A DNA stretch of 64,000 nt from Massilia sp. PAMC28688 (GTDB lineage Bacteria; Pseudomonadota; Gammaproteobacteria; Burkholderiales; Burkholderiaceae_D), in NCBI RefSeq assembly GCF_019443445.1, contig NZ_CP080378.1, positions 558,001 to 622,000 of the forward strand. Reading direction: 5' to 3'. The stretch's first letter is position 1, and every line of letters starts with the position of its first letter. The notes below the pieces were generated by a model, which was not told the origin of the DNA, did no database searches, and worked only from the letters and a program-made list of their open reading frames with translations. Of this stretch, positions 46,762 to 60,215 are shown one piece after another. The position numbers were made by a program, and so were the translations under genes.

Positions 46762-47655
46762 CTAGCCGTAATCGGCTTCCAGCTCCGATCCCGCGTAGTT
46801 TTCAAACTCGGCAAAGAGCGTCTTCATGGCCGTGCGCGAGCGAATTTTCTGGATGACGGTGCAGTGGGTGCGGTAGGACGCGATGCGCTCGGCGATGACC
46901 GGCTGGTGCTGGGGCGGGATCTGCGCCATGAGCGCGGCCCAGCCCTCTTCAAAGTCCGGCTTGTTCTTGCGCACCGACTTGACCAGGCGCTCGAAGTCCT
47001 TCTGGCTTGAACGCGCAACGATCCGCCCGCCTCCCTCGATGGCGGAAATGATGGCCACGGCGATCACGCCCTCGGCGTTCAGGTCCGGATCGTTGATTGG
47101 CCCGGCATAATGATGGCGACGCAGCCAGCCGGCGGCACGCACGATCGCCTGCACTGCCTTGCGCTGGCGATGCTGGGTGGCGTAACGCTCAAAACCGGCC
47201 CAGTTCTGGGTCGGATCGGCGTAGCAGATGTCGACGAACAGCTCCTTGAGGCGCCGCTGCAGGTACACCGGGTCCTGGTCGTACTCGCCCACCAGCGAAT
47301 CCTCGGGCAGTGCTGCGAGCTCGCGGATCATGCGAAAACCCGTCTGGAAGACGTGTTCGGCTCCCTGCTCGATCAGGTAGTGCATGGCCGCTTCGTCATC
47401 CTCGTCCGGCTCCAGGTCGTGGTCCAGGCCCAGCGACACGCAGCCCACCGTCAGGTAGTAGGCGCGCACGATGCCTTCGGCCGTTTTATCGTTGGTGAAT
47501 TTTTCCGCCACCATGGCCGTGATGCCGGACAGTTCGTCGGCCATGATCACGGCGTGGTCTTCCACGTCGTGCCTGGCCAGGCAGCGAATTGCCAGCACCA
47601 GCCGTGGCAGGCGCTCGACGACGAGCGCGGGCAGCATGCCTTGCGACTCGTCCAT
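46762..47655 (-). CDS. Hypothetical protein C of J-domain operon
   Basis: 297 residues starting at ATG 47655, which overlaps the upstream stop (TGATG); a GTG one codon earlier is possible. Mostly helical, with acidic stretches (GLDHDLEPDEDDEAAMHYL) and a block EGVIAVAIISAIEGGGRIVARSSQKDFERLVKSV. No signal peptide, membrane helix or catalytic motif is visible. I do not recognise the family. It is the last gene of a four-gene operon headed by a J-domain protein. Confidence 0.75.
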   Translation of the reverse strand: MDESQGMLPALVVERLPRLVLAIRCLARHDVEDHAVIMADELSGITAMVAEKFTNDKTAEGIVRAYYLTVGCVSLGLDHDLEPDEDDEAAMHYLIEQGAEHVFQTGFRMIRELAALPEDSLVGEYDQDPVYLQRRLKELFVDICYADPTQNWAGFERYATQHRQRKAVQAIVRAAGWLRRHHYAGPINDPDLNAEGVIAVAIISAIEGGGRIVARSSQKDFERLVKSVRKNKPDFEEGWAALMAQIPPQHQPVIAERIASYRTHCTVIQKIRSRTAMKTLFAEFENYAGSELEADYG

Positions 47656-48434
47656 CACGAAAAGATACCCGTGCCGATGCTCTTGCGCGCGCCGCGCTTG
47701 GGAATGGCGCTGCGCTGCGACGGCACCTGCTTGCGCAGGCGGTACAGCAGCTCCTTGGTCGAGCGCTGCAGGAATTTGGGTTCCTCGTCGGGATCGTCCG
47801 AGTATTCGGCGTCGGCCAGGTCGCCGCTATGGCGAAAGTCCGGGAACAGCTCGAACAGCGCGCGGTCCCAGCCATCTTCGCTGGCGCGCACCAGTTCCAC
47901 CGCCAGCGGCACCACGTCGCTGTCGGACGACGACTGGGCGGTGATGTACTGGCCCTTGGCCAGCACTTCGCCGGCCAGTTCCAGCATCTCTTTTGGTGCC
48001 ATCGAAAACAGGATGGCAAAGATGGTGGCCCCGTAATCGGTGGCCGAGGCTTCGGCCAGCAGCTCGTGGCGGCGCTCCACGTCGTCGGTGGAAAACACGA
48101 TGCCGTGCACGTGCGCGAACAGCGACTCGGCCACGCGCTCGGGATCGTCCTCGATCATGTCGTCGGACCAGGTGGCGGCAAAGAACGCCAGGCTGTCGGC
48201 CCATGCCTTGGGCGGCACCAGCAGGGTGGCCAGCGAGGTTTTGCCGCCGTCAAAGCCGGCCAGGTGCAGCGCGGTGACCTGCGGCGCCAGCTGTCCCAGT
48301 ACTTCAACCACGGCCAGGTCGCCATGCTGCTCCACTGCTTCCGAAAACGCCTGCTCGGCGTGATGCAGGGAGCCGGCCAGTACCAGTTCGCTGACCTGCT
48401 TGCTCAGTGCGGGAAGATTGGCTTTTTCACTCAT
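47655..48434 (-). CDS. Hypothetical protein B of J-domain operon
   Basis: 259 residues. Helix-rich and acidic: a repeat-like N-terminus (ALSKQVSELVLAGSLHHAEQAFSEAVEQHG), then AATWSDDMIEDDPERVAESLFAHVHGIVF and ATIFAILFSMAPKEMLELAGEVL. The last ~25 residues are basic (KQVPSQRSAIPKRGARKS). Could be a TPR-like scaffold; not recognised. It begins 2 bases after the upstream gene's stop and overlaps the downstream one by 1 base. Confidence 0.75.
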   Translation of the reverse strand: MSEKANLPALSKQVSELVLAGSLHHAEQAFSEAVEQHGDLAVVEVLGQLAPQVTALHLAGFDGGKTSLATLLVPPKAWADSLAFFAATWSDDMIEDDPERVAESLFAHVHGIVFSTDDVERRHELLAEASATDYGATIFAILFSMAPKEMLELAGEVLAKGQYITAQSSSDSDVVPLAVELVRASEDGWDRALFELFPDFRHSGDLADAEYSDDPDEEPKFLQRSTKELLYRLRKQVPSQRSAIPKRGARKSIGTGIFS

Positions 48435-48436
48435 CC

Positions 48437-48931
48437 TCAGTCCTCCTGGTCAAACATCTGCGCAAAGTCGTCGGACACGCCATCGTCGTCTTCCACGTCG
48501 TCGCCGTCATCGTTCTCGCCCAGCTGGTCGAAGGACTGGTCTTCCTCGTCCCACATGCGCGGGTTCTTGAAGAGGAAGGCGGTGATGATGGCCTGGCGCG
48601 CCAGATCGGGATGGTTTTCCGTCATGGCCGCGTACATGGCCGCGGCGTCGCCTTCGCAGGCTGCCATGGTGAATACCTTTTCCGGGTTGCCGCCATCGTA
48701 TTCGCCGGCTTCTGCCAACAGGCCCTTGGCATTGCTGAAGGTGATGTGGTCCACCAGCGCAAAGCTCATCATGTTGACGTCTTCGATGCCGCCGCCGGCA
48801 GCGTACTCGCTCACCAGGGCCGACTGCATCATTTCGTAGTTCTTGCGGTTGGGCGGGTCGCCCAGGATGCCGTCGATCTGGCCGCCAAGCTCGCGCGACT
48901 GGTAGGCAAATTCGGGGTGTACTTTTCTCAT
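48437..48931 (-). CDS. Hypothetical protein A of J-domain operon, acidic tail
   Basis: 164 residues. The first ~130 are helical (PNRKNYEMMQSALVSEYAAGG, MYAAMTENHPDLARQAIITAF); the C-terminus is strikingly acidic (ENDDGDDVEDDDGVSDDFAQM). No signal or membrane segment. It lies 46 bases after the J-domain gene. An acidic client-binding or chaperone-like tail is a possible reading; no family is recognised. Confidence 0.75.
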   Translation of the reverse strand: MRKVHPEFAYQSRELGGQIDGILGDPPNRKNYEMMQSALVSEYAAGGGIEDVNMMSFALVDHITFSNAKGLLAEAGEYDGGNPEKVFTMAACEGDAAAMYAAMTENHPDLARQAIITAFLFKNPRMWDEEDQSFDQLGENDDGDDVEDDDGVSDDFAQMFDQED

Positions 48932-48977
48932 GTCGTGTCCTGTAAATGGGTGCTGTTGCTGCTGGCCGGGACCGCGC

Positions 48978-49268
48978 TTACGCCGGCAGGCTCACGCCGT
49001 TCAAGGCAAACAGGGACCGCCACAATTCGAACGCCTCGGCCTCGGCATCGAGAATGATGCGGTGGTTGATGCTCTGGTTGTATTCGTCCCTCCTGGCCCG
49101 GTCGGACAGGATTTCGTAGGCCTTGGTGATGCTCTGGAAGCGCGCCTTGGCACCCGGCGCATCGTTGCGGTCGGGATGGTAGCGCATGGCCAGGGAACGG
49201 TAGATCTTCTTGATCTCGTCATCGCTGGCATTGGGCGCGACGCCGAGGACGGCGTATAAATTTTCCAT
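48978..49268 (-). CDS. Small J-domain co-chaperone
   Basis: 96 residues from ATG 49268 with GGGAG upstream. Residues 1-65 are a J domain ([32 protein letters not shown] at 31-33, [15 protein letters not shown]), which stimulates DnaK ATPase. The zinc-finger and substrate-binding domains of DnaJ are absent; the last ~30 residues ([17 protein letters not shown]) form a short helical tail that could recruit the downstream-encoded proteins. First gene of the four-gene operon. Confidence 0.9.
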
Positions 49269-49420
49269 TTCAGAAACTCCCGGTGACAGCAAAAAACAGT
49301 AAAGAGGGATTATCCTATAGAAAGCGCGGCGGCGGGTAGCGGCGCGGGGCGCCTGCCCCTGTAGGAGTGCCTCGCGTACGGTAAAATGCTGCGATCTGAT
49401 CCTTTCTAGGCATTTACCTG

Positions 49421-51178
49421 ATGAGCAACGACAAAAATAACGTCCCGGCACCGGCCAATGCGCCCTCGCCCAACTTCCTGCGGGCCATTGTCGAGAACGA
49501 CCTGGCCGCCGGCACCCATGTGCGAGCCGGCCTGCCACCGGTGATCACGCGCTTTCCACCGGAGCCGAACGGCTATCTGCACGTGGGCCACGCCAAGTCG
49601 ATCCACGTCAATTTTGGCCTGGCGCGCGACTATGGCGGGCGCTGCCACCTGCGCTTTGACGATACCAATCCGGAAAAGGAAGATACCGAATACGTCGATA
49701 CCATCAAGGACAGCGTGAAGTGGCTCGGTTTCGACTGGGAGCAGGATGGCCAGTCGCATCTGTACTTCGCGAGCGACTATTTCGAGCAGCTCTATACCAT
49801 GGCCGAGTACCTGATCACGTCCGGCCACGCCTATGTGGACAGCCAGAGTGCCGAGGACATGGCAAGGAACCGGGGCAATTTCGGCACGCCCGGCACCAAT
49901 TCGCCCTTCCGCGACCGCCCGGCCGCGGAATCGCTGGCGCTGTTTCGCGCCATGCGCGCCGGTCAATTCAAGGACGGTGAGCACATCCTGCGCGCGAAGA
50001 TCAGCGAAGACGGCATGGCCTCGCCCAACATGAACATGCGCGACCCGGCCATCTACCGCATCCGCCACGCGCACCACCACCGCACCGGCGACGCCTGGTG
50101 CATCTATCCGATGTATGACTACACCCATCCGATTTCGGACGCGCTGGAGAACATCACCCATTCGGTGTGCACGCTCGAATTCCAGGACCACCGCCCGTTC
50201 TACGACTGGCTGCTGGCGACCCTGGCCGAAGGCGGCTTCTTCAAGCAGCCGGTGCCGCGCCAGTACGAATTCGCGCGCCTGAACACCACCTACGTCGTCA
50301 CCAGCAAGCGCAAGCTGCGCCAGCTGGTCGAGGAAGGCATCGTGTCGGGCTGGGACGATCCGCGCATGCCGACTCTGGTCGGCCTGCGCCGGCGCGGCTT
50401 CACGCCCGACTCGATCAAGCTGTTCTGCGACCGCACCGGCACCTCCAAGAGCGACGGCTGGATCGACATGAGCGTGCTCGAAGGCGCGCTGCGCGACGAC
50501 CTCGATCCCAAGGCGCCGCGCGCCACCGCCGTGCTGCGGCCCCTCAAACTCATTATCGACAACTTCCCGGCCGACCTGTCGGTGCCGTGTTCGTGCCCCG
50601 TGCACCCGCACTTCCCCGAACGCGGCGAGCGTACTTTCCCGATCACGCGCGAATTGTGGATCGAGCAGGAAGACTTCATGGAAGTGCCGAGCAAGGGCTA
50701 CTTCCGCTTCTACCCGCCCATTGGCGACGCGCCGGGCAGCCGCGTGCGCCTGCGCCACGGCTATGTGGCCGAATGCGTGGGCTACGACAAGGATGCCGAC
50801 GGCAAGGTCAGCGCGGTCCACGTGAAGTATTTCGAGGACAGCAAGTCGGGCACCGAAGGCTCGAATGCGTACAAGGTCAAGGGCAACATCCACTGGGTGA
50901 GCGCGGCGACGGCCCTTGAAGCGGAAGTGCGCCTGTACGACCGCCTGTTCCTCGATCCGCATCCCGATGCAGGCGGCAAGGACTTCAAGACCGCCCTCAA
51001 CCCTGCGGCGCTGGAAGTGGTGACGGCCTACCTGGAGCCGGGGATGAGCGCGGCCGAACCGGAACAGCGCTTCCAGTTCGAGCGCCATGGCTACTTTGTG
51101 GCCGACCGGGTCGATTCGGCACCGGGCAAACCGGTGTTCAACCGGGTCACAACGCTCAAGGACAGCTGGGGCAAATAG
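49421..51178 (+). CDS. glnS: Glutaminyl-tRNA synthetase
   Basis: 585 residues. Class I motifs: [15 protein letters not shown] (HVGH at 54-57, the HIGH box) and VVTSKRKL (~290, KMSKS-like). [31 protein letters not shown] and the C-terminal anticodon-binding beta-barrels are typical of GlnRS. It charges tRNA-Gln directly. A clear terminator follows. The N-terminal ~20 residues are Asn/Pro-rich and probably disordered. Confidence 0.97.
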
Positions 51179-51221
51179 CTGACATACGGCGTCGCCAATG
51201 TGCGACGCTTTCGCCCTCACG

Positions 51222-51256
51222 ATCCCGCTCCGGCCCGCGCTGCAGCGGGATTTTTT
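51222..51256 (+). terminator. Rho-independent terminator after glnS
   Basis: An eight-base-pair perfect stem (ATCCCGCT / AGCGGGAT) with a 14-base GC-rich loop that can extend the stem, followed by six T including the stem end. It starts about 40 bases after the glnS stop. Confidence 0.75.
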
Positions 51257-51341
51257 GATATTCATCAACTTAACAATATGCAAACCTAGCAGGACGGATA
51301 GGTAGGCGGTTAAGGTCCTATCGGTTAACTTAGATCAAACC

Positions 51342-53228
51342 ATGCAGCGCCATTTGCGGCTACCGAAAGGATTGCAACGCGCAATGCGAACCCACCATTC
51401 CACGACCAAGAGCTTCTCGACCACACGGCCGGCCATGTGGATCGGGGTGCCCTTGTCGATCACGGTTGGCCTGGCGCTGTACGTGATGACGGCCGGCTCG
51501 ATTGAAGCCGATTCGCGCCAGCGTTTTTCGGCCCACGCGCAAAACGCCCGCAACATCATTGTCGCGCGCATCAAGTCGTATACCGATGTCCTGCGCGGCA
51601 CGGCCAGCCTGTTCCAGACCAGCTATCCGCTCACGCGCCGCCAGTTCCACGGTTACGTGCAGGGGCTGGAGCTGGCGCGCCACTTCCCTGCCATCGAAAC
51701 GATCAACTTTGCCGAATTCGTCAAGGACGAGAACCGCGAAGCATTCGAGCGGCGTATCCGCAGCGAGCTCAATGCCGACATCGACGGCGTGACGCGCTTC
51801 GAGATTCGCCCGCCGGGCCGGCGTGCCGAATACAGCGTGCTGACGTTCATCGAGCCGATCGAACCGGGCAACAAGGCTATCGGTTTCGACCTGCAGGCCA
51901 ACCCGCTGCAGCAGGTCAACCATGTGGCCTTGCGCGATGGCGGCCAGCTCATTTCCTCAGGCATGCCGGTTGCTGCCATGTCCGGCCGCAACCGCACCGG
52001 GCTGGCCATGCGCTTGCCCATCTATCTGCCGCACGCGCCCACCAGCACCGTCAAGGAACGGCGCGCAGCCTTTGTCGGCTCGGTCGGCATTGCCTTCAGC
52101 GTCGACAAGCTGGTGCTGGGCGTGATCGATGAAATGCCCGTCAAAAACGTGCGCATGACGCTGGTGGACAACGCCATTGGCGTGGACCGCAAACGGGGGC
52201 GCGTGCTGTTCGATACCCAACCAGGGCTGGCCGCGCGCCGCACCGGTGTCAACCTGCTCAGCGACCGTTTCAGCAGCACGCTGCCGATAGACTTCAATGG
52301 GCGCCAGTGGGATGCGACCTTCAGCATCGCTGCGCGCGACCTGTACACCGGCTTTGAGGAATTCGTGCCCTGGCTGGCGATGGCGGCCGGCTTTACCAGT
52401 TCGATGCTGCTGTACGCCCTGTTCCACGCGCTGACGTCGTCGCGCCGGCGCGCCATCAAGATGGCCAAGGGGATGACGCGCGAGCTGCGCGAAAGCCAGA
52501 CCAAGCTGCAGCAGTCGCACCAGAACCTGCGGCGCCTGGCCGCGCATGCGGATCAGATCAAGGAAGGCGAACGCAAACGCATCGCACGCGAAATCCACGA
52601 CGACCTGGGACAGAACCTGCTGGCACTGCGCATCGAGGCCGACATGCTGGCCACGCGCACCCGCGACAAGCACCCGCGCCTGCATGCGCGCGCGCGCGGC
52701 ACGCTGCAGCAGATTGACGCGACCATCAAGAGCGTGCGCCAGATTATCAATGACCTGCGCCCGAATGTGCTGGACCTGGGCCTGTCGGCGGCGGTGGAGT
52801 GGCAGATCGCCGAGTTCCGGCGCCGGACCGGGATCGCCTGCGAGCTCATTGACGAGCCCAAGGACGTCACCCTCAACGACCATGCCGCCACGGCCTTTTT
52901 CCGCATCCTGCAAGAGTCGCTCAGCAACATCGTGCGTCATGCCCATGCCACGGCGGTGCGCGTGCAGCTGTGCTCCGACGGGCGCCAGCTCACCATGACC
53001 GTCACCGACAACGGCATCGGACTGGGAGCGCGCGAAAGGGGCAAGGCCGGCTCCTTTGGCCTGGTCGGCATCGAAGAACGCATCAGCATCCTGGGTGGTT
53101 CGTGTTCCATCAGCAGCGCCGACGGCGAAGGCACCACGGTGTGCGTGTCGGTGCCGCTGCAGGAACCCGGACGTGACGCCAGCTCCCCTCCGGCTGGCCC
53201 GTCCTCACGGCACCCGGCGCTTGTCTGA
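51342..53228 (+). CDS. CHASE-domain sensor histidine kinase (HisKA_3 type), orphan
   Basis: 628 residues from ATG 51342; ATG 51384 with AAAGGA upstream is an alternative. TM1 ~33-52, then a periplasmic CHASE domain (~75-290: SLFQTSYPLTRRQFHGYV, FPAIETINFAEFV, GFDLQANPLQQVN), TM2 ~345-365, and a NarL-partner kinase core: H-box REIHDDLGQNLLALRIEADML (His ~418), N-box QESLSNIVRHAH and G-box DNGIGLGARERGK, SFGLVGIEERI. CHASE domains sense small extracellular ligands such as cytokinins or peptides. No response regulator is adjacent, so its partner is elsewhere. It ends 277 bases before the CMLQP-repeat gene. Confidence 0.92.
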   Translation: MQRHLRLPKGLQRAMRTHHSTTKSFSTTRPAMWIGVPLSITVGLALYVMTAGSIEADSRQRFSAHAQNARNIIVARIKSYTDVLRGTASLFQTSYPLTRRQFHGYVQGLELARHFPAIETINFAEFVKDENREAFERRIRSELNADIDGVTRFEIRPPGRRAEYSVLTFIEPIEPGNKAIGFDLQANPLQQVNHVALRDGGQLISSGMPVAAMSGRNRTGLAMRLPIYLPHAPTSTVKERRAAFVGSVGIAFSVDKLVLGVIDEMPVKNVRMTLVDNAIGVDRKRGRVLFDTQPGLAARRTGVNLLSDRFSSTLPIDFNGRQWDATFSIAARDLYTGFEEFVPWLAMAAGFTSSMLLYALFHALTSSRRRAIKMAKGMTRELRESQTKLQQSHQNLRRLAAHADQIKEGERKRIAREIHDDLGQNLLALRIEADMLATRTRDKHPRLHARARGTLQQIDATIKSVRQIINDLRPNVLDLGLSAAVEWQIAEFRRRTGIACELIDEPKDVTLNDHAATAFFRILQESLSNIVRHAHATAVRVQLCSDGRQLTMTVTDNGIGLGARERGKAGSFGLVGIEERISILGGSCSISSADGEGTTVCVSVPLQEPGRDASSPPAGPSSRHPALV

Positions 53229-53321
53229 CACCGTCTTTCGCATTGTCCTATACAGCGCCTGCGGCAGCAGCTGAAGCCGTCGTCAGCCCAGGCGTCATGG
53301 CTTAGGAATACGTGAAAGTGT

Positions 53322-53341
53322 TTGTTGAGTGAAATCAACAA
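53322..53341. promoter_or_regulatory. Inverted repeat TTGTTGA-N6-TCAACAA upstream of CMLQP-repeat gene
   Basis: Perfect seven-base arms with a six-base centre, 165 bases before the repeat gene and 94 after the kinase gene. Symmetry and location suit an operator or a short hairpin; no T-tract follows. Confidence 0.4.
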
Positions 53342-53505
53342 TGCCGGGACGCAACGGCGCAACATCCTCATCTAGTAACGCAAATCAATGCTTTTAGGAA
53401 TTTGATTTCTTACTGGATACAGAAAGGAGCACGCCGAGCTGGGCTTTACCGTCATTCAAACAGGGATGTCTCACCACAAACTACACTCTACAAAGAGGAA
53501 AAATC

Positions 53506-54471
53506 ATGAAAACCAATAACATCTTCGACGCCATCAATGCACTGAACCTGGAGCCAATCAAGACCAAACTGATGCACGCCGCGTCGGGCGAAGGCTGGAG
53601 TCGCGCCAAAGCCGATGCCATCGCCATCGAGTACTGCCGGTTTTTGTTTTTGATGCACAGTTATCCCCATGAGCAGGTGGCCCCCACGGTCGATGTCGAT
53701 ACCTTCTGGCATTACCACATCCTTGATACGATGAAGTATGCGGCCGATTGCGAACAGACCTTTGGCTACTTCCTGCACCACTATCCGTACGTTGGCCTCG
53801 ACACCGATGAACAGGATGGCGCCGATGCGCGCGGCGGCAATCGCATGAAAGAACTGTACGAGCACACTTTCGGCGAGCCGTACATTCGCGCTGAAGCCTA
53901 TGGCACTGATGCCGCCCAGGCCGCCAGTGCCTACTGCATGCTGCAACCAGGCATGAAGGCAGGGACCGATGGCGCGTACTGCATGCTGCAGCCGGGGTTG
54001 AAAGCCGGTACCGATGCAGCTTACTGCATGCTGCAGCCGAGCGTGAAAGCCGGTACCGACGCAGCGTATTGCATGCTGCAGCCACAGGCAAAACACGCTG
54101 GCGCCGAAGCTGCATACTGCATGCTGCAACCGGGCGTGAAAGCCGGCACCGACGCAGCCTATTGCATGCTGCAGCCGAGCGTGAAAGCCGGTAGCGACGC
54201 CGCTTATTGCATGCTGCAGCCACAAGTAAAACAAGCGGGAGTAAAACAAGCGGGGACCCGGATTGCTGACTGCATGCTGCAGCCACGGGTCAAAGCCGGC
54301 GCCGAGGCTGCTTACTGCATGCTGCAGCCACAAGTGAAACAAGGAGCCGCCACGGCTTACTGCATGCTGCAACCGCAAGTGCAGCAGGCAGGTACAGAGT
54401 CAGCCTATTGCATGCTGCAGCCGCAGGCTCGCGCACCGCAGCGCTGCGCAGCACCGATATTGCCGGCCTGA
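53506..54471 (+). CDS. GRDP-like domain protein with eleven CMLQP tail repeats
   Basis: 321 residues, AGAGGA before ATG 53506. Residues ~1-128 resemble the bacterial glycine-rich-domain-protein-like (GRDP-like) domain: SVDVDTFWHYHILDT-type motif as VDVDTFWHYHILDTMKYAADC, then FGYFLHHYPYVG and RMKELYEHTFGEPYIRAEAYG; the His/Asp/Cys cluster suggests metal binding. From residue 142 to 307 a tail repeats (A/D)YCMLQP eleven times (Cys at 144, 159, 174, 189, 205, 220, 235, 256, 271, 286, 302), mostly every 15 residues, with linkers such as GVKAGTDAA. No signal peptide or membrane helix is evident. The tail is either a multi-core peptide precursor or a metal/thiol-binding array; I know of no characterised protein like it. 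No modifying enzyme is next to it. Confidence 0.85.
   Translation: MKTNNIFDAINALNLEPIKTKLMHAASGEGWSRAKADAIAIEYCRFLFLMHSYPHEQVAPTVDVDTFWHYHILDTMKYAADCEQTFGYFLHHYPYVGLDTDEQDGADARGGNRMKELYEHTFGEPYIRAEAYGTDAAQAASAYCMLQPGMKAGTDGAYCMLQPGLKAGTDAAYCMLQPSVKAGTDAAYCMLQPQAKHAGAEAAYCMLQPGVKAGTDAAYCMLQPSVKAGSDAAYCMLQPQVKQAGVKQAGTRIADCMLQPRVKAGAEAAYCMLQPQVKQGAATAYCMLQPQVQQAGTESAYCMLQPQARAPQRCAAPILPA
53929..54426 (+). repeat. Eleven-copy ~45-bp coding repeat (YCMLQP unit)
   Basis: Eleven copies of the core TGCATGCTGCA, invariant at DNA level. The flanking Tyr (TAC/TAT), Gln (CAG/CAA) and Pro (CCA/CCG) codons vary silently. Spacing is 45 bases for most copies, 48 or 63 for three. Ten units read YCMLQP and one (at 256) reads DCMLQP. 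Confidence 0.95.
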
Positions 54472-54538
54472 TTGTCTCGCCTGGCCGGCGAGAGCCGGTT
54501 CGGGCACGCTACGACGCGCTCGCGTCATCAAACGCACT

Positions 54539-54589
54539 ACGCCGTCTTGCCCCGCCTGCCTCCGGCAGGATGAAGGAGCAAGACGGCGT
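54539..54589. repeat. Nested perfect inverted repeat downstream of the CMLQP gene
   Basis: Twelve-base perfect arms (ACGCCGTCTTGC, 54539-54550; GCAAGACGGCGT, 54578-54589) enclose a second perfect stem (CCTGCC / GGCAGG, 54555-54569). It lies about 70 bases after the stop codon and ends 46 bases before the convergent HTH gene's stop. There is no T-tract, so it may stabilise mRNA, extrude as a cruciform, or block both converging transcripts. Confidence 0.7.
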
Positions 54590-54635
54590 GTCACTTCAGC
54601 GTCCCACGGCGCGATCGCCGCCAGCCTGGAGCGGC

Positions 54636-54905
54636 TTAAGCCGCCACCGAGTGGAATGGTGTGACCTGCACACCCATCAAAGACTTCAGTTCCCGGATGC
54701 TGAATTCGCTCACTTCATGCATACGCAGCAAGATCGTGGCGCCGATTGGCAGCGTGCGGTGGCGAATCTTGCTGATGACCGGTGGCGCCACTTCCAGGGC
54801 GCGCGAGAGCGCTGCATCATTCTTGAGGTTCAGCCGCTCCATGATCGCGTCAAGAACGCGGTTGGGATCATAGGTTGCCTCTGTGGGCACATGTCTTGTC
54901 GTCAT
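54636..54905 (-). CDS. Small XRE-like helix-turn-helix protein
   Basis: 89 residues. A single helix-turn-helix domain is visible (NRVLDAIMERLNLKNDAALSRALEV then PPVISKIRHRTLPIGATILLRMHEV), with the recognition helix near SKIRHRT. Short unstructured N-terminus, C-terminal SIRELKSLMG. It converges on the CMLQP-repeat gene. Its upstream region holds two palindromes that could be its operators. Similar small regulators are common in Oxalobacteraceae; target unknown. Confidence 0.72.
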   Translation of the reverse strand: MTTRHVPTEATYDPNRVLDAIMERLNLKNDAALSRALEVAPPVISKIRHRTLPIGATILLRMHEVSEFSIRELKSLMGVQVTPFHSVAA

Positions 54906-55053
54906 GACTACATTCTTTCAAAAATTCACATTCCGCAGCATGTTTGCCGCGGGCTCGTCGCTACCAGCAAAAACACCGCTCCCCTCACCTTTCAGGCACA
55001 TTCGATACGGTCATCAAACGCGTCCGAACAGCTTCGGTAACATTGACATTTGC

Positions 55054-55413
55054 TTAAGCTGTGACATTCTCACACAAAATTGGTTTGTGTTTAAGTAAAT
55101 TTTGATGTGTTTGTGTCGCGACACAGGAAATTTTCATAGCGGCGAGGAGGAAGTCGCATGCCAGCGTCGTGGCCAGACGGGTATAGGCGGTGGGAATTAG
55201 ATAGAATTGCAGCGGCAGACACTGGACATCGGCCCGCATGAGGCGCCAGCCCAGCAAGGCCCGGATTTCTTCAGGCGACGGCGGCGGACGGCGGCCGGCC
55301 CGGCGCGCCACGAGCCGCGCTGCCATATAGGCGCGGACCTGTTCCTTGGTAGGTTGTGTGATGCGGTGTGGCATGGCAGGCTCTAGCACAAGTAAATAAT
55401 CCGGGATGGACAT
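55054..55413 (-). CDS. Hypothetical small protein, betaproteobacterial type
   Basis: 119 residues from ATG 55413 (GGTGAG upstream); ATG 55374 is an alternative. A basic helical segment RAYMAARLVARRAGRRPPPSPEEIRALLGWRLM is followed by LPLQFYLIPTAYTRLAT. The last ~30 residues (SCVATQTHQNLLKHKPILCENVTA) come from AT-richer DNA with different codon use, which suggests that the natural stop was lost and the frame reads into intergenic sequence. Function unknown. Confidence 0.5.
   Translation of the reverse strand: MSIPDYLLVLEPAMPHRITQPTKEQVRAYMAARLVARRAGRRPPPSPEEIRALLGWRLMRADVQCLPLQFYLIPTAYTRLATTLACDFLLAAMKISCVATQTHQNLLKHKPILCENVTA
55060..55074. promoter_or_regulatory. Inverted repeat TGTGA-N5-TCACA
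   Basis: Perfect arms with a five-base centre, like a CRP/FNR-type site but one base shorter than the usual N6. It overlaps the 3' end of the hypothetical gene at 55054-55413 and lies 155 bases upstream of the HTH gene. Confidence 0.4.
55112..55125. promoter_or_regulatory. Perfect palindrome TGTGTCGCGACACA
   Basis: A 14-base perfect palindrome in the AT-richer segment upstream of the HTH gene. Symmetry suggests a dimeric regulator site. TGTG/CACA arms recur in the neighbouring inverted repeat. Confidence 0.45.
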
Positions 55414-55479
55414 TACTCACCATATGCCTGCGCAGAAATTGCCCTTTGAGGAAGCTCAATCGGACAATGGTGCGCCGCA

Positions 55480-55683
55480 TCAAGCTTTTTGGCTGGCCAT
55501 AAAAATGGTCTTGGCATCCTTGTGGGCGCGATCGATATTGCGCAGCGCTTCCTGCTCGTCGTGCTGCACGAAAAATTCCGCGTCCTGGGCCTTGACCACG
55601 AGCTTGATGGCGGCGGCATCGCTGAGATTGTATTTCTCCACGATCAGCGTCGTGACTTCATCCAGATATTCTTCGTAGGTCAT
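55480..55683 (-). CDS. Hypothetical 67-residue protein
   Basis: From ATG 55683 with GGGAA ten bases upstream; ATG 55695 is weaker. A single mixed-helix protein: YEEYLDEVTTLIVEKYNLS, DAAAIKLVVKAQDAEFF and NIDRAHKDAKTIFMA. No signal, membrane or catalytic motif. Not recognised, but the codon pattern and good start support a real small gene. Confidence 0.65.
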   Translation of the reverse strand: MTYEEYLDEVTTLIVEKYNLSDAAAIKLVVKAQDAEFFVQHDEQEALRNIDRAHKDAKTIFMASQKA

Positions 55684-55711
55684 CGTTGTTCCCATCGCAT
55701 AGTCAAGCCCC

Positions 55712-56602
55712 TCATTCTACCAGTGCCATGGCCGTGAGCGATGTGCAGACATCGGGGTGCCGCAGGCGCACACCCAGTTCGCGCTTGATGCGCGCATTGC
55801 GCATGCGGCGCGATTCCGACATGAACGACAGCAGCATGGGCGATACTTGCAGGACCAGTTGCTCTCTCGCGACGCGCGGCGGACGCGCCATACCGAACGC
55901 ATCAGCCACGGCATCGAAATAATCAGCCATCTTCATCTGCGTGTCATCGACCGCGTGGTACACCCGTCCAGGCCGCCCCTTGAACAAAGCTTGCACCACA
56001 ATGCGGGCCAGGTCGTCGGCATGGATGTGGTTGGTGAAGACGTCTTCCTGCGCCAGCAAGGCAGGCGTGCCCTGCTGCAGACGGCGCAGCGGCAGGCGAT
56101 CACGGGCATAAATGCCCGGCACGCGCAAAATGGCCAGCCTGGCCCCGCTGGCGCGCGCCCACTTGCGCAAGACCTGTTCCGCATCCACCCGGCGCATGGC
56201 GCGGGCATTGCGCGGCGCTACCGGGCGCGTTTCATCGATCAGCGCGCCGCCGCAGTCACCGTACACGCCCGTGGTACTCACATAAACCATGCGCGCGCCC
56301 TCAGGTAGAATGGCGCACAAGTTGCGCGTCCGCTGGTCCCGCACGCCTTCGGACTGGGGCGGCGCCAGGTGCACGACATGGTGCGCCAGGCCCGCCAGGC
56401 GCTTCAGCGTCGCCGGCCGGTCAAGGTCGGCCAGGATGGGAATGGCCCCTGCCGCCCGCAGCTCGGCGCAGCGCTCGGGCGAACTGGTGACGGCAACAAT
56501 GCGGAAACGGTGGCGCAGCAGCGGCAGCAGGCGCATGCCCACATCGCCGCAGCCCAGCACCAGCAGGCGTGGCCGCTTGAGTGTATGTTTGATGTTGTTC
56601 AT
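55712..56602 (-). CDS. NAD-dependent epimerase/dehydratase-like protein (YeeZ type)
   Basis: 296 residues from ATG 56602. LLVLGCGDVGMRLLPLL is the dinucleotide-binding GxGxxG loop, followed by an acidic-ended second strand region, STTGVYGDCGG (the S-x-x-x-Y motif partly degenerate) and FTNHIHADDLARIVVQAL, all typical of atypical extended SDRs of the YeeZ branch. The YxxxK catalytic pair is not obvious, so a classical epimerase activity is doubtful. It is divergent from the ferredoxin-reductase gene, with only 12 bases between starts. Confidence 0.8.
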   Translation of the reverse strand: MNNIKHTLKRPRLLVLGCGDVGMRLLPLLRHRFRIVAVTSSPERCAELRAAGAIPILADLDRPATLKRLAGLAHHVVHLAPPQSEGVRDQRTRNLCAILPEGARMVYVSTTGVYGDCGGALIDETRPVAPRNARAMRRVDAEQVLRKWARASGARLAILRVPGIYARDRLPLRRLQQGTPALLAQEDVFTNHIHADDLARIVVQALFKGRPGRVYHAVDDTQMKMADYFDAVADAFGMARPPRVAREQLVLQVSPMLLSFMSESRRMRNARIKRELGVRLRHPDVCTSLTAMALVE

Positions 56603-56614
56603 TTTGAGGATTGT

Positions 56615-57640
56615 ATGACGTTCCAAGTTACTGTTCAGCCTAGCGGCCATCAATTTGACTGCGAAGCCGACGAAACCGTGCTGGCGGCGGCGATTCGGGC
56701 CGGCATCGGCCTGCCTTATGGCTGCAAGAACGGCGCCTGTGGATCGTGCAAGGGCAAGGTAGTGCAAGGGGCGGTGTCTCATCGCGCCCACCAGCAGCGC
56801 GCCCTGAGCGAAGACGAAAAGGCCCAGGGCTTTTCCCTGTTCTGCTGCGCCACCACGGCGGCCGACCTCGTGATCGAAGCGCGTGAAGTGGGCGGCAGCA
56901 GCGAGTACCCGGTGCGCAAGATGCCCTCGCGCGTGCTAGCCATGGAAAAAGTCGCGCCCGATGTGATCGTGCTCACCTTGCAGCTGCCGGCCAACGAAGC
57001 CCTTGCCTACCGCGCCGGACAGTATATCGAATTCATGCTGCGCGATGGCAAGCGGCGCAGCTACAGCATGGCCAACGCGCCCAGCCTGGACGCCCCGCTC
57101 ACCCTGCATATCCGCTACATGGCGGGCGGCATGTTCACCGAACACGTGTTCAATACCATGAAGGAGCGCGACATCCTGCGCTTCGAAGGGCCGCACGGCA
57201 GCTTTTTCCTGCGCGAAGAGTCGGACAAGCCGATCGTGCTGCTGGCCTCGGGAACCGGCTTTGCGCCCATCAAGGCGCTGGTTGAGCACATGATCCACCT
57301 GCAGTCGACCCGGCCTGTCAGCCTGTACTGGGGCGGACGCCGCCCGCTCGACCTGTACATGAACAGCCTGTGCGAGCAGTGGGCAGCGACGCTGCCGAAC
57401 TTGCGCTACATTCCCGTGGTCTCACATGCACTGCCGGACGACCAGTGGACCGGCCGTACCGGCTTTGTGCATGCCGCCGTCCTGCAGGACTTGCCCGACC
57501 TGTCCGGCCACCAGGTGTATGCCTGCGGCGCGCCGGTGGTGGTGGAATCGGCCCAGCGCGACTTTGTCGAGCGTTGTGGCCTGCCGCCGGAGGAATTCTT
57601 CGCCGATGCCTTTACCAGCGAAGCAGATCTGCACAACTAG
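56615..57640 (+). CDS. 2Fe-2S ferredoxin-NAD(P)H reductase (CDP-6-deoxy-glucoseen reductase type)
   Basis: 341 residues, GAGGA before ATG 56615. N-terminal 2Fe-2S domain: C37, C42, C45 (YGCKNGACGSCKG) and C77/C78 (FSLFCCAT). The FAD domain has RRSYSMANAP and the NAD domain GTGFAPIKALVEHM and YWGGRRPLDLYM, closing VYACGAPVVVESAQ. The order 2Fe-2S-FAD-NAD matches AscD-like and phenol/CDP-sugar reductases that feed electrons to an oxygenase or dehydratase. No partner is adjacent. Confidence 0.92.
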   Translation: MTFQVTVQPSGHQFDCEADETVLAAAIRAGIGLPYGCKNGACGSCKGKVVQGAVSHRAHQQRALSEDEKAQGFSLFCCATTAADLVIEAREVGGSSEYPVRKMPSRVLAMEKVAPDVIVLTLQLPANEALAYRAGQYIEFMLRDGKRRSYSMANAPSLDAPLTLHIRYMAGGMFTEHVFNTMKERDILRFEGPHGSFFLREESDKPIVLLASGTGFAPIKALVEHMIHLQSTRPVSLYWGGRRPLDLYMNSLCEQWAATLPNLRYIPVVSHALPDDQWTGRTGFVHAAVLQDLPDLSGHQVYACGAPVVVESAQRDFVERCGLPPEEFFADAFTSEADLHN

Positions 57641-57648
57641 CCCCGCCG

Positions 57649-58260
57649 CTAGCGGCGCCGCACCGTGCTGGCATCGAACTTGTCACGGTGCTTGCCGCTG
57701 ATGCCGCTGTAGAACTGCTGGATTTCGGCCATGTCGGCAGTGATGTCGCCCGTGGTCACAAACATGCGCCCGATGCCGCCGCGTTTGCGCGCGTAATCCA
57801 GGTAGGCCATGGCAATGGGGACCCCGGCGCCATGGGCCATATGGTAGAAGCCGGTTTTCCAGTGGGTCACCTTGCCGCGCGTGCCCTCGGGCGCCACGAT
57901 CACGGCCAGCCGTTCGCGTTCCTGGAAGGCCTTGATCGTGGTCTGCACCGTATTGTTCGATGCGCTGCGGTCGATGGGAATACCGCCCAGCCAGCGCGAC
58001 AGCCAGCCGATCGGCCAGCTGAACAAGCTCGCTTTCGCCATCCAGTACACGCGCAGGCGCAGCTGGAAGCACAGCATGAGCGTGATTGGAAAGTCCCAGT
58101 TGCTGGTGTGCGGGGCGGCAATGAGCACATACTTGGGATAGGCCGCGATCTCGTCCGGCGACATGCCCTCCGTACGCCAGCCCGTGCTGCGCATGGCAAA
58201 CCGTGACACGCCAAGCATCAGGCGATTGATCAGGGGCGTTTCAAAAATAGTCCGCTGCAT
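57649..58260 (-). CDS. 1-acylglycerol-3-phosphate acyltransferase-type protein
   Basis: 203 residues from ATG 58260 (GGAA upstream). The HX4D motif is APHTSNWDFP (H51, D56) and the substrate motif is APEGTRGK; LMLCFQLRLRVYWMAKASLF and WLSRWLGGIPIDR are the usual flanking blocks. These enzymes transfer an acyl chain to lysophosphatidic acid or related acceptors at the inner membrane. It converges with the reductase gene. Confidence 0.9.
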   Translation of the reverse strand: MQRTIFETPLINRLMLGVSRFAMRSTGWRTEGMSPDEIAAYPKYVLIAAPHTSNWDFPITLMLCFQLRLRVYWMAKASLFSWPIGWLSRWLGGIPIDRSASNNTVQTTIKAFQERERLAVIVAPEGTRGKVTHWKTGFYHMAHGAGVPIAMAYLDYARKRGGIGRMFVTTGDITADMAEIQQFYSGISGKHRDKFDASTVRRR

Positions 58261-58407
58261 TGCTGGTTCCGGTAAATATGCTTCCACAAGGCACTATTTT
58301 ACCCCGCCTGCATATGCGAAACCGTTGTTTGCCAGCCCTGGCGGCCCTTATTTTGTCCGCCCGGCGAGCGCGGCGCGGAGCGGCAGGCAGACGCCACATC
58401 AGGCACA

Positions 58408-59688
58408 ATGTCGTTCCTTCAAGAATTTTTCCGCGAATCTGCAATGTCCTTCATGTCGCCCACCAATGGCTTGCGCGTCTTGCGTAACCGCAATTTCGCC
58501 TGTTACCTGTCGGCGCGCGTCCTGGGTACCCTTGCAGTGCAGATGCAGAGTGTGGCCATTGGCTGGCAGGTGTACCAGATCACCGGCAGCCTGTTCGACC
58601 TCGGCTTGATTGGCCTGGCGCAATTTGCCCCCTTCCTCGTGTTGATCTTGCTGGCCGGCCATGTGGCCGACCGCTACAACCGGCGCACCATCATCATGCT
58701 GTGCCTGGCGGTACAGCTATTGTGCGCATTCCTGCTGCTGGCCTTTACCTACAGCGGTTCGCGCGTCGTCTGGCCCGTGTTCGCAGTGCTGGTGCTGTTT
58801 GGCAGCGCCCGGGCCTTCATGATGCCGGCTACCCAGGCCGTGCTGCGCAACATTGTGCCCATTGAGCAGTTCAGCGAAGCGGTGGCCCTCAGCTCTTCCG
58901 CCTTTCACGTGGCGGTGATTGCCGGCCCGATCCTGGGCGGTCTGCTGTACCTGGCCGGCCCCTCCACCGTGTACCTGGCTGCCGTGACACTGCTGGTGCT
59001 GTCGGTTGTGCTGATGGGTTGGACGCGGGCCGCACCCCAGGCGGTCAATACCGAGCCGGCCACCTGGCACACGGTGCTCGAAGGCCTGCGCTTTGTGTGG
59101 TCACGCCCCATCATGCTGGGCGCCATTTCGCTGGACCTGTTCGCGGTCCTGTTTGGCGGGGCCACCGCCTTGTTGCCTGCCTACGCGCGCGATGTGCTGC
59201 AAGTCGGTCCCACTGGCCTGGGCTTTCTGCGCACGGCACCGGGCGTGGGCGCGGCCATCTGTTCCATTGCCCTGGCTTTCTTTCCGCTGCAGCGGCGCGT
59301 GGGGGCATGGATGTTTGGCGGCGTGGCCGTGTTCGGACTGGCCACGCTCACGCTGGGCCTGACCGACAGCTTTGCCGTGGCGCTGGCGGCCCTGTTGCTG
59401 CTGGGAGCGGGTGACATGGTCAGCGTGTATGTCCGCCACCTGCTGGTCCAGTATGAAACGCCCGATGCAATCCGCGGCCGGGTCAGTGCCGTCAATGCGG
59501 TCTTCATTGGCGCTTCCAACGAACTGGGCGAATTTGAATCCGGTATCACGGCCGGCTGGTTCGGCCTGGTGCGCGCCATCGTCTTTGGCGGCGCCGCCAC
59601 CCTGGCCGTGACGGCCATCTGGATGGTCAAGTTTCCGGTGCTGTCGAAGATGGATCGCTTTCCTCATCATGACAAGCCGCCGCTGTGA
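58408..59688 (+). CDS. MFS transporter, EntS-like
   Basis: 426 residues from ATG 58408; ATG 58444 is an alternative. Twelve hydrophobic helices; NRNFACYLSARVLGTLAVQMQSVAIGWQVYQITGS and LAGHVADRYNRRTIIM contain the MFS motif A region (GxxaDRxxRR). The long family (DUF894-type) includes the enterobactin exporter EntS. A short basic C-terminal tail follows. Substrate unknown; no biosynthetic genes are adjacent. Confidence 0.88.
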   Translation: MSFLQEFFRESAMSFMSPTNGLRVLRNRNFACYLSARVLGTLAVQMQSVAIGWQVYQITGSLFDLGLIGLAQFAPFLVLILLAGHVADRYNRRTIIMLCLAVQLLCAFLLLAFTYSGSRVVWPVFAVLVLFGSARAFMMPATQAVLRNIVPIEQFSEAVALSSSAFHVAVIAGPILGGLLYLAGPSTVYLAAVTLLVLSVVLMGWTRAAPQAVNTEPATWHTVLEGLRFVWSRPIMLGAISLDLFAVLFGGATALLPAYARDVLQVGPTGLGFLRTAPGVGAAICSIALAFFPLQRRVGAWMFGGVAVFGLATLTLGLTDSFAVALAALLLLGAGDMVSVYVRHLLVQYETPDAIRGRVSAVNAVFIGASNELGEFESGITAGWFGLVRAIVFGGAATLAVTAIWMVKFPVLSKMDRFPHHDKPPL

Positions 59689-59849
59689 CCCAGGCTGCGC
59701 TCCGCTTGAAACTGACCAGGAAGTATGAAAGGTGTAAGATCAAACCGTGCGCAATGTCGTTGCCAGCGCCGGCGCGGCAGTTTTGACTGCCGCGGCGCAC
59801 ACAGCGCCGGCCTGGAGCAATACCTTTATGAACAACCGGGAGTGAGCTT

Positions 59850-60215
59850 ATGCAAATTAACATCAATACCGACAAGACGATCGAGCGTCACCAGGGCCTG
59901 GACGACCATGTGCAGTCAGTGGTTGCGGCTGCGGTGCAGCGTTTTGCCGATCACATCACTCGCGTCGAAGTTCACCTCAGTGACGAACTGAGCCAAAAGT
60001 CGGCTGACGGCGGCAATCGCTGCCTGCTTGAAGCTCGCGTGACGGGCTACCAGCCAATCGCCGTCAGCGCGCATGCCGAGTCGCTGCACCAGGCTATTTC
60101 TGGCGCGGCAGACAAGCTCAAGCGTGCAATCGACAGCGCCCTGGGCCGCCTGCACGACAAGCAGATGCATGCCACGCCAACCCTGGTGGCCGAGCCTGAC
60201 GAAGTGAACGAGTAA
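59850..60215 (+). CDS. HPF/RaiA-family ribosome-associated protein
   Basis: 121 residues, GGGAG before ATG 59850. A single HPF/RaiA-like domain with the motifs TRVEVHLSDELSQK, CLLEARVTGYQPIAVSAHAESLHQAISGAADKLKRAI. Unlike long HPF it has no C-terminal dimerisation domain. Members bind 30S subunits and slow translation in stress. It has no obvious operon partner. Confidence 0.85.
   Translation: MQININTDKTIERHQGLDDHVQSVVAAAVQRFADHITRVEVHLSDELSQKSADGGNRCLLEARVTGYQPIAVSAHAESLHQAISGAADKLKRAIDSALGRLHDKQMHATPTLVAEPDEVNE

Follow-up and report, generated by a model that had tools for sequence, protein, structure and literature searches.

Several described systems bear on the locus analysed here. Multi-copy precursors such as yeast alpha-factor and the FMRFamide-type neuropeptides keep their cores alike as the spacers between them drift, and the precursor of the Dictyostelium peptide SDF-2 is of a different kind from the protein analysed here. 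In bacterial pheromone-receptor pairs such as ComX-ComP, the genes for cue and receptor are adjacent and the sensor half co-diverges. The Pfam family PF07173 takes its name from plant proteins that have a glycine-rich region. Among receptors with a CHASE sensor domain, PcrK is reported to sense isopentenyladenine, and its pocket is described as being opened by an unidentified periplasmic molecule (both from the available part of PMC7072313). DhkA, also a CHASE receptor, reportedly recognises a peptide, and as of 2007 the ligand was known for only a few CHASE receptors (from the available part of PMC1863423).

The window, which is the whole 64,000-nucleotide stretch analysed here, contains on its forward strand an open reading frame (53506..54471, 321 amino acids in the ORF listing) that had been described in an earlier note as a GRDP-like domain followed by eleven repeated units, and this description holds. 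The GRDP-like domain occupies residues 1-125 (53506..53880, +; profile match and AF2 model). The array that follows (53929..54423, +) has eleven near-identical units with variable linkers, ten reading AYCMLQP and one ADCMLQP, which start at residues 142, 157, 172, 187, 203, 218, 233, 254, 269, 284, and 300 and together span residues 142-306. The period of about 15 residues given earlier is likewise borne out: spacing is 15 or 16, with the single exception of 21 between units 7 and 8, and Tandem Repeats Finder detects the array at a period of 45 (score 301) and of 138 (score 430). Over positions -1..+5 the units have a pS of 0.53 and no non-synonymous changes (pN 0), as calculated from ten of the eleven units, the motif filter having removed the ADCMLQP unit. 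Because synonymous sites have diverged between units without non-synonymous change, the array is not a product of chance. A 296-residue open frame lies antisense to the gene (53488-54378, -) and similar antisense frames recur in relatives; these look like an effect of codon composition.

The window protein matches PF07173 over residues 43-81 at 21.2 bits, just below the Pfam cut-off of 22.7; four of the seven homologues scanned pass the cut-off (P0007, P0017, P0046, and P0082) and three do not reach it (P0043, P0052, and P0096). PF27765.1 is the precomputed assignment for the window protein (P0001) and for other listed homologues, and our Pfam scan of the window protein and the seven homologues returned no PF27765 match. 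AF2 models the domain as helices, with pLDDT above 80 in every ten-residue block of residues 11-130; the array tail is modelled at a pLDDT of about 44-73, with most cores drawn as short strands. Columns invariant in 53 relatives include D65, W68, H69, H71, I72, L73, T75, Y78, D81, G87, H91, H92, P94, and F122; the alignments used in this study (A1, A2, and A3) are hand-picked subsets of 36, 53, and 43 sequences. By hydropathy, the window protein has no signal peptide, membrane helix, or N-terminal hydrophobic stretch, and mean hydropathy over 19 residues exceeds 1.6 in only one of 101 array proteins, where the stretch lies in the tail.

The genome from which the window comes has one array gene, and the family is large. 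Among 7999 scored candidates, 1955 homologues were found at E <= 1e-3, and 115 of the best 120 of these have at least three units. A species-genome scan yielded 247 relatives, from which 78 loci holding 100 array genes were retained (one gene in 57 loci, two in 20, and three in one), which together with the window array gives the 101 arrays compared. Each array repeats its own core, with the common pattern Ala-[Tyr/Phe/Trp/His]-[Cys/Ser]-xxx; in the best 120 homologues the aromatic-Cys pair is followed by MYRP, MLRTP, IRTDPP, MVKP, GRAP, CYVP, AMRPP, VLDSK, and other sequences. The Cys that seemed a constant of the window unit is not one family-wide, since 38 of the 101 arrays have Cys at this position and 63 have Ser; in 62 of the 63 Ser-type arrays the tail is without any Cys. 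In the loci read, Cys predominates in Massilia and Telluria and Ser in Janthinobacterium, Duganella, Rugamonas, and Pseudoduganella, with exceptions in Duganella (Cys in L054 and L063) and Massilia (Ser in L037, L043, L050, L058, and L068). In many Ser-type arrays, for example L016, L052, and L068, a C-terminal motif [FLM]Y..RP.L recurs after the last unit. Spacing between units ranges from 6 to 36 residues, and 16 of 94 arrays keep to a single spacing.

Selection was analysed in the 97 arrays with at least four units; L007:1, L062:1, L076:2, and L081:1, each with fewer than four aromatic units, were dropped. Identity at core positions +2..+4 is 0.82-0.92 within arrays versus 0.20-0.39 between arrays, and at linker positions (-6..-3 and +7..+14) within-array identity is 0.36-0.49. 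Positions 0 and +1 (the aromatic residue and Cys/Ser) are left out of this comparison because the motif search itself fixes them. Core pN is 0.10 and core pS 0.49, compared with 0.38 and 0.61 in the linker, and pN is lower in the core than in the linker in 94 of the 97 arrays taken individually. Such frequent synonymous differences mean that the units are not fresh copies. By this measure, the cores are kept alike inside each array by purifying selection, yet differ between arrays. Low pN with high pS in the core therefore argues for some reader of the core, and for one that reads the same core about ten times. The earlier note had taken tails that vary freely and have no conserved Cys as a sign of a disordered linker; the tails do vary and their Cys is not constant, but each protein preserves its own core closely, and so the tail is not a mere linker.

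More distant GRDP-like relatives that were read have the domain alone, or with Gly/Cys-rich or other short tails. In 44 remote or weakly matching loci (L122-L140 and L149-L173, about 1.5 kb of flank) no array-type CHASE partner was seen, and none of the proteins read from part of these loci has an array. The GRDP-like proteins of L105 and L125 end in a short tail, CWHDC..RCWHAC, in place of an array, and those of L122, L123, and L149 have a CPNCGRR motif after the domain, which is possibly half of a zinc ribbon. Two unusual loci were recorded: L081, a locus in a metagenome-assembled genome labelled Streptosporangiaceae with a module of Oxalobacteraceae type, is probably misbinned, and in L007, from a genome (G231) estimated to be 48% complete, the reading frames of array and kinase are both broken.

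The gene 277 bp upstream of the window array (51342..53228, +) encodes a sensor histidine kinase with the architecture CHASE-HisKA_3-HATPase_c, all three domains being over the Pfam cut-off (116.9, 53.2, and 48.6 bits). Its CHASE domain (residues 98-277; 51633..52172, +) is flanked by long helices, from which, together with its family, it is expected to lie in the periplasm, and its kinase part matches DesK/VraS-type structures. First taken for an orphan sensor kinase, it belongs to a conserved group of CHASE-domain receptors: in 77 of the 78 loci the first array gene is preceded on the same strand by a homologue (median gap 183 bp), and in the remaining one (L040) the contig begins 540 bp before the array gene. 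Synteny is shared with glnS, an anchor upstream of the kinase and outside the module (49421..51178, +; cluster in 45 of 78 loci), and with a small downstream gene, so adjacency in much of the clade could simply be inherited. Three observations indicate that the linkage is more than inherited synteny. In Albitalea (L042) the partner is a CHASE-PAS-GAF-GGDEF-EAL protein 15 bp upstream of the array gene, and the glnS and kinase clusters of the window type are both unseen there; with the output thus swapped, what remains in common is CHASE and its membrane region. In five basal loci from three other genera of the family (L118, L180, L182, L184, and L185) a related kinase stands head-to-head with the array gene, and the four of these kinases that were scanned are all CHASE-PAS-HisKA_3-HATPase_c. 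Kinase-array pairs are also doubled in L009, L011, and L079 and tripled in L015. Elsewhere, a single kinase precedes two array genes with different cores in 17 loci, and a short array copy of three units (L186) has no CHASE neighbour. Judged from gene order across these genomes, the kinase is not a chance neighbour of the array gene, and the CHASE receptor and the array protein very probably form a coupled two-gene module.

The duplicated pairs show which parts of the module change together. In four within-genome comparisons (L079, L009, L011, and K2/K3 of L015), kinase residues 381-605 differ by 0-4% and the GRDP-like domains by 0.8-3.2%, while the CHASE domains differ by 36-42% and the cores also differ. 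The duplicates are near-identical over kinase residues of about 331-600 and over the GRDP-like domain to about residue 120, with an abrupt change to the CHASE domain and to the array; pS is 0.48-0.57 in CHASE versus 0.04-0.14 in the kinase. The contrast is milder for K1 of L015 against K2 and K3 (a difference of 4-6% in the kinase, 14-15% in the GRDP-like domain, and 41-44% in CHASE), and two kinases in L069, the second without an array gene in the DNA at hand, differ by 7% in the kinase and 47% in CHASE. Across genomes, the same core goes with a closer CHASE: receptors sharing FCAGPR differ by 1.1% and those sharing YCAGPW by 14.7%, and among those sharing YCASPR the difference is 9.4% between L009 and L011 and 27-29% with L015. 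These comparisons suggest joint divergence of CHASE and array against a conserved kinase and GRDP-like domain, and from the pattern in the duplicates CHASE and array are therefore read as specificity halves. It could also be that two fast-changing segments each escape gene conversion independently, leaving the kinase and the GRDP-like domain alike.

The covariation tests on 30 and on 26 pairs drew on 63 of 84 kinases, those left out being 17 with two array genes, the second kinase of L069 (L069_K2, array gene unseen), and the kinases of L042, L007, and L062. When the tandem loci are taken alone (ten pairs), the distance between cores tracks that between CHASE domains (Mantel r 0.57, p 0.0003) and not that between kinases (0.19, p 0.16) or GRDP-like domains (0.23, p 0.11). 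With 30 disjoint pairs, tandem loci included (31 before one was dropped for zero kinase distance), the correlation of core with CHASE given kinase and N-terminal domain is 0.67 (p 9e-5). In 26 pairs without the five tandem loci the correlation with CHASE is 0.24-0.35 and not significant (p 0.10-0.25), and that with the GRDP-like domain, at 0.33-0.51 (p 0.01-0.12), is as strong or stronger.

Other neighbours are less informative. A small convergent gene encoding an HTH-like protein of 89 amino acids (54636..54905, -) has no Pfam match and a weak, below-cut-off match resembling HigA antitoxin; in 71 of 78 loci the minus strand carries a homologue no more than 2.5 kb downstream, and on this gene order the gene may be part of the module or just another element of the shared synteny. 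An MFS_3-type transporter 4 kb downstream of the array gene (58408-59688, +; cluster in 45 of 78 loci) is separated from it by unrelated genes, and nothing indicates peptide transport or a tie to the array. No dedicated peptide exporter or protease was found among the neighbours scanned (window genes in 47655-60215 and ten cluster representatives). The genome has five further CHASE regions, the closest of which (37%) is in a CHASE-PAS-HisKA-REC-Hpt hybrid kinase identified by domain scan (L179:4878-8099; G000:C1 about 4297377-4300598). In a CHASE tree, similar long frames of other array-bearing genomes appear to group with this hybrid kinase, near the array-linked receptors; among these frames the domain scan covered the one from the window's own genome. 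Receptors of this group could respond to that cue as well, and might be the partners of the second array gene in many Ser-type loci.

Where cores are private, under selection, and present in many copies next to a sensor domain that diverges with them, the plainest reading is a cue and its receptor. We tentatively propose, as something that could well be the case, a two-gene sensory module in which the repeated core is a cue specific to species or gene copy and is read by the adjoining CHASE domain. The array gene would be one half of this module and the receptor next door the other, the two staying together through changes of gene order and receptor output and being duplicated together; together they may thus make up a peptide-specific signalling pair that has not been described before. 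The core would be released by a protease or displayed many times to become the cue for CHASE, the aromatic residue (Y, F, W, or H) of the core possibly occupying with its side chain the adenine-ring site of cytokinin receptors, and the role of leader or handling part would fall to the GRDP-like domain. The module is well supported, the peptide cue is a step that we infer, and we hold with moderate confidence that CHASE reads a cue which the array provides or bears. The weak point is topology, since no export signal is present in the array protein, whereas CHASE is expected in the periplasm. Also against the cue reading are the cytokinin-type fold of CHASE, the lack of a dedicated exporter or protease among the neighbours scanned, the non-significant core-CHASE covariation outside the tandem loci, and the 17 loci with one kinase before two different arrays. 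A fuller version would make the module a bacterial counterpart of multi-copy prohormones, with a cytosolic precursor of some ten private hexa- to heptapeptides of the form Ala-aromatic-Cys/Ser-xxx, matched to CHASE and existing as distinct duplicated pairs within a genome; this version is doubtful.

It is unlikely, though less so than the remaining alternatives, that CHASE reads a cytokinin-like small molecule and that the array protein is an intracellular downstream or feedback partner, whose cores bind something in the cytoplasm and ride along with the receptor. The best structural matches of the CHASE model are PcrK (TMt 0.79) and AHK4 (0.75), and Asp183, invariant in 43 kinases, aligns with the Asp of the LD motif of both. 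With these matches to cytokinin sensors and the invariant Asp, a small-molecule ligand is at least as natural for the domain; the modelled fold and the Asp agree with the window kinase as a putative cytokinin receptor, isopentenyladenine is the reported ligand of PcrK (available part of PMC7072313), and the array protein looks cytosolic. A small molecule alone, however, leaves unexplained why CHASE and array diverge jointly in duplicates whose kinase is constant, and why each array has a private core.

Cores could instead be self-recognising stickers, with units that stack or cluster, private sequences that prevent mixing of paralogues, and a receptor that controls assembly. Sameness within arrays and freedom between them fit this idea, as do the short strands drawn for most cores and the aromatic residue or His at position 0 in all 97 array consensuses, although the motif search requires the latter. 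Against it stand the tail pLDDT of about 44-73 and the irregular spacing, single in few arrays, which does not fit a regular solenoid; self-recognition also does not predict linkage to CHASE, and stickers are distinctly improbable.

The earlier note had proposed a leader with a multi-core peptide precursor, and the layout stands, with cores selected alike behind a leader-like domain and drifting linkers; the proposal that the array is a RiPP precursor, in which the Cys or Ser of each core is modified and the product released, receives no help from gene position and is quite unlikely. In its favour, several maturase classes act on both Cys and Ser, these two residues exchange at one position of the core, and of the 12 genomes examined all have YcaO and 11 have MNIO. 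The YcaO common to all 12, however, is a long open frame of about 740-870 residues in a family that also matches in E. coli (further copies occur in G070, G192, and G201), and a genome with a six-unit AYCLGPG array (G273) has no MNIO match. The search for the tail and its conserved neighbours that the same note had suggested found the family and its CHASE receptor and, among the neighbours scanned, no YcaO or other maturase. The scan took in window genes from 47655 to 60215 and ten proteins standing for conserved clusters of neighbours, four of which have no Pfam match at all, and no YcaO, MNIO, or C39 match of the 12 genomes falls within the array locus. An MNIO gene (PF05114; G000:C1:540289-541068) lies about 71 kb from the window array, and in 10 of the 12 genomes MNIO and array are separated by a similar stretch of about 57-82 kb. 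A tandem soft-metal or thiol-binding array, also raised earlier from the one Cys and one Met of each window unit and in keeping with the conserved His, Cys, and Asp of the GRDP-like domain, is rejected as the common function of the family because 63 of 101 arrays use Ser, nearly all of them without tail Cys, and is very improbable as an explanation of the module.

Literature searches, in which subscription journals were thinly covered, found no publication on the array or on the CHASE-array pair. The module is real, selected, widespread, and undescribed in the literature searched; its domains are ordinary and their combination is unusual. The family would supply directly synthesisable ligand candidates for CHASE receptors, and the duplicated pairs of four genomes, as natural specificity swaps, would serve as built-in controls. 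If the cue reading is true, Gram-negative soil and root bacteria have a genetically encoded, fast-diversifying peptide cue; if it is false, selection within arrays still demands a partner that reads the core, and the linkage to CHASE indicates where to look. The N-terminal domain is held in common with the GRDP-like proteins of PF07173 and PF27765 ("glycine-rich domain-containing protein-like," in Massilia and others), while the plant proteins of PF07173 have a glycine-rich region where the array is found here. PcrK of Xanthomonas and AHK4 of Arabidopsis share with the array's partner the CHASE fold, the sensor kinase, and the conserved Asp, and differ in that the kinase part here matches DesK/VraS-type structures; to our knowledge, neither is paired with a repeat protein. 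DhkA and SDF-2 of Dictyostelium offer a receptor of the CHASE family reported to recognise a peptide, in a eukaryote (available part of PMC1863423). Although the array protein is without a secretion signal or known processing site, and its GRDP-like domain has no counterpart in multi-copy precursors or in ComX-ComP, the module shares with these systems cores that are alike, spacers that drift, and an adjacent receptor, whose sensor half co-diverges in the tandem duplicates.
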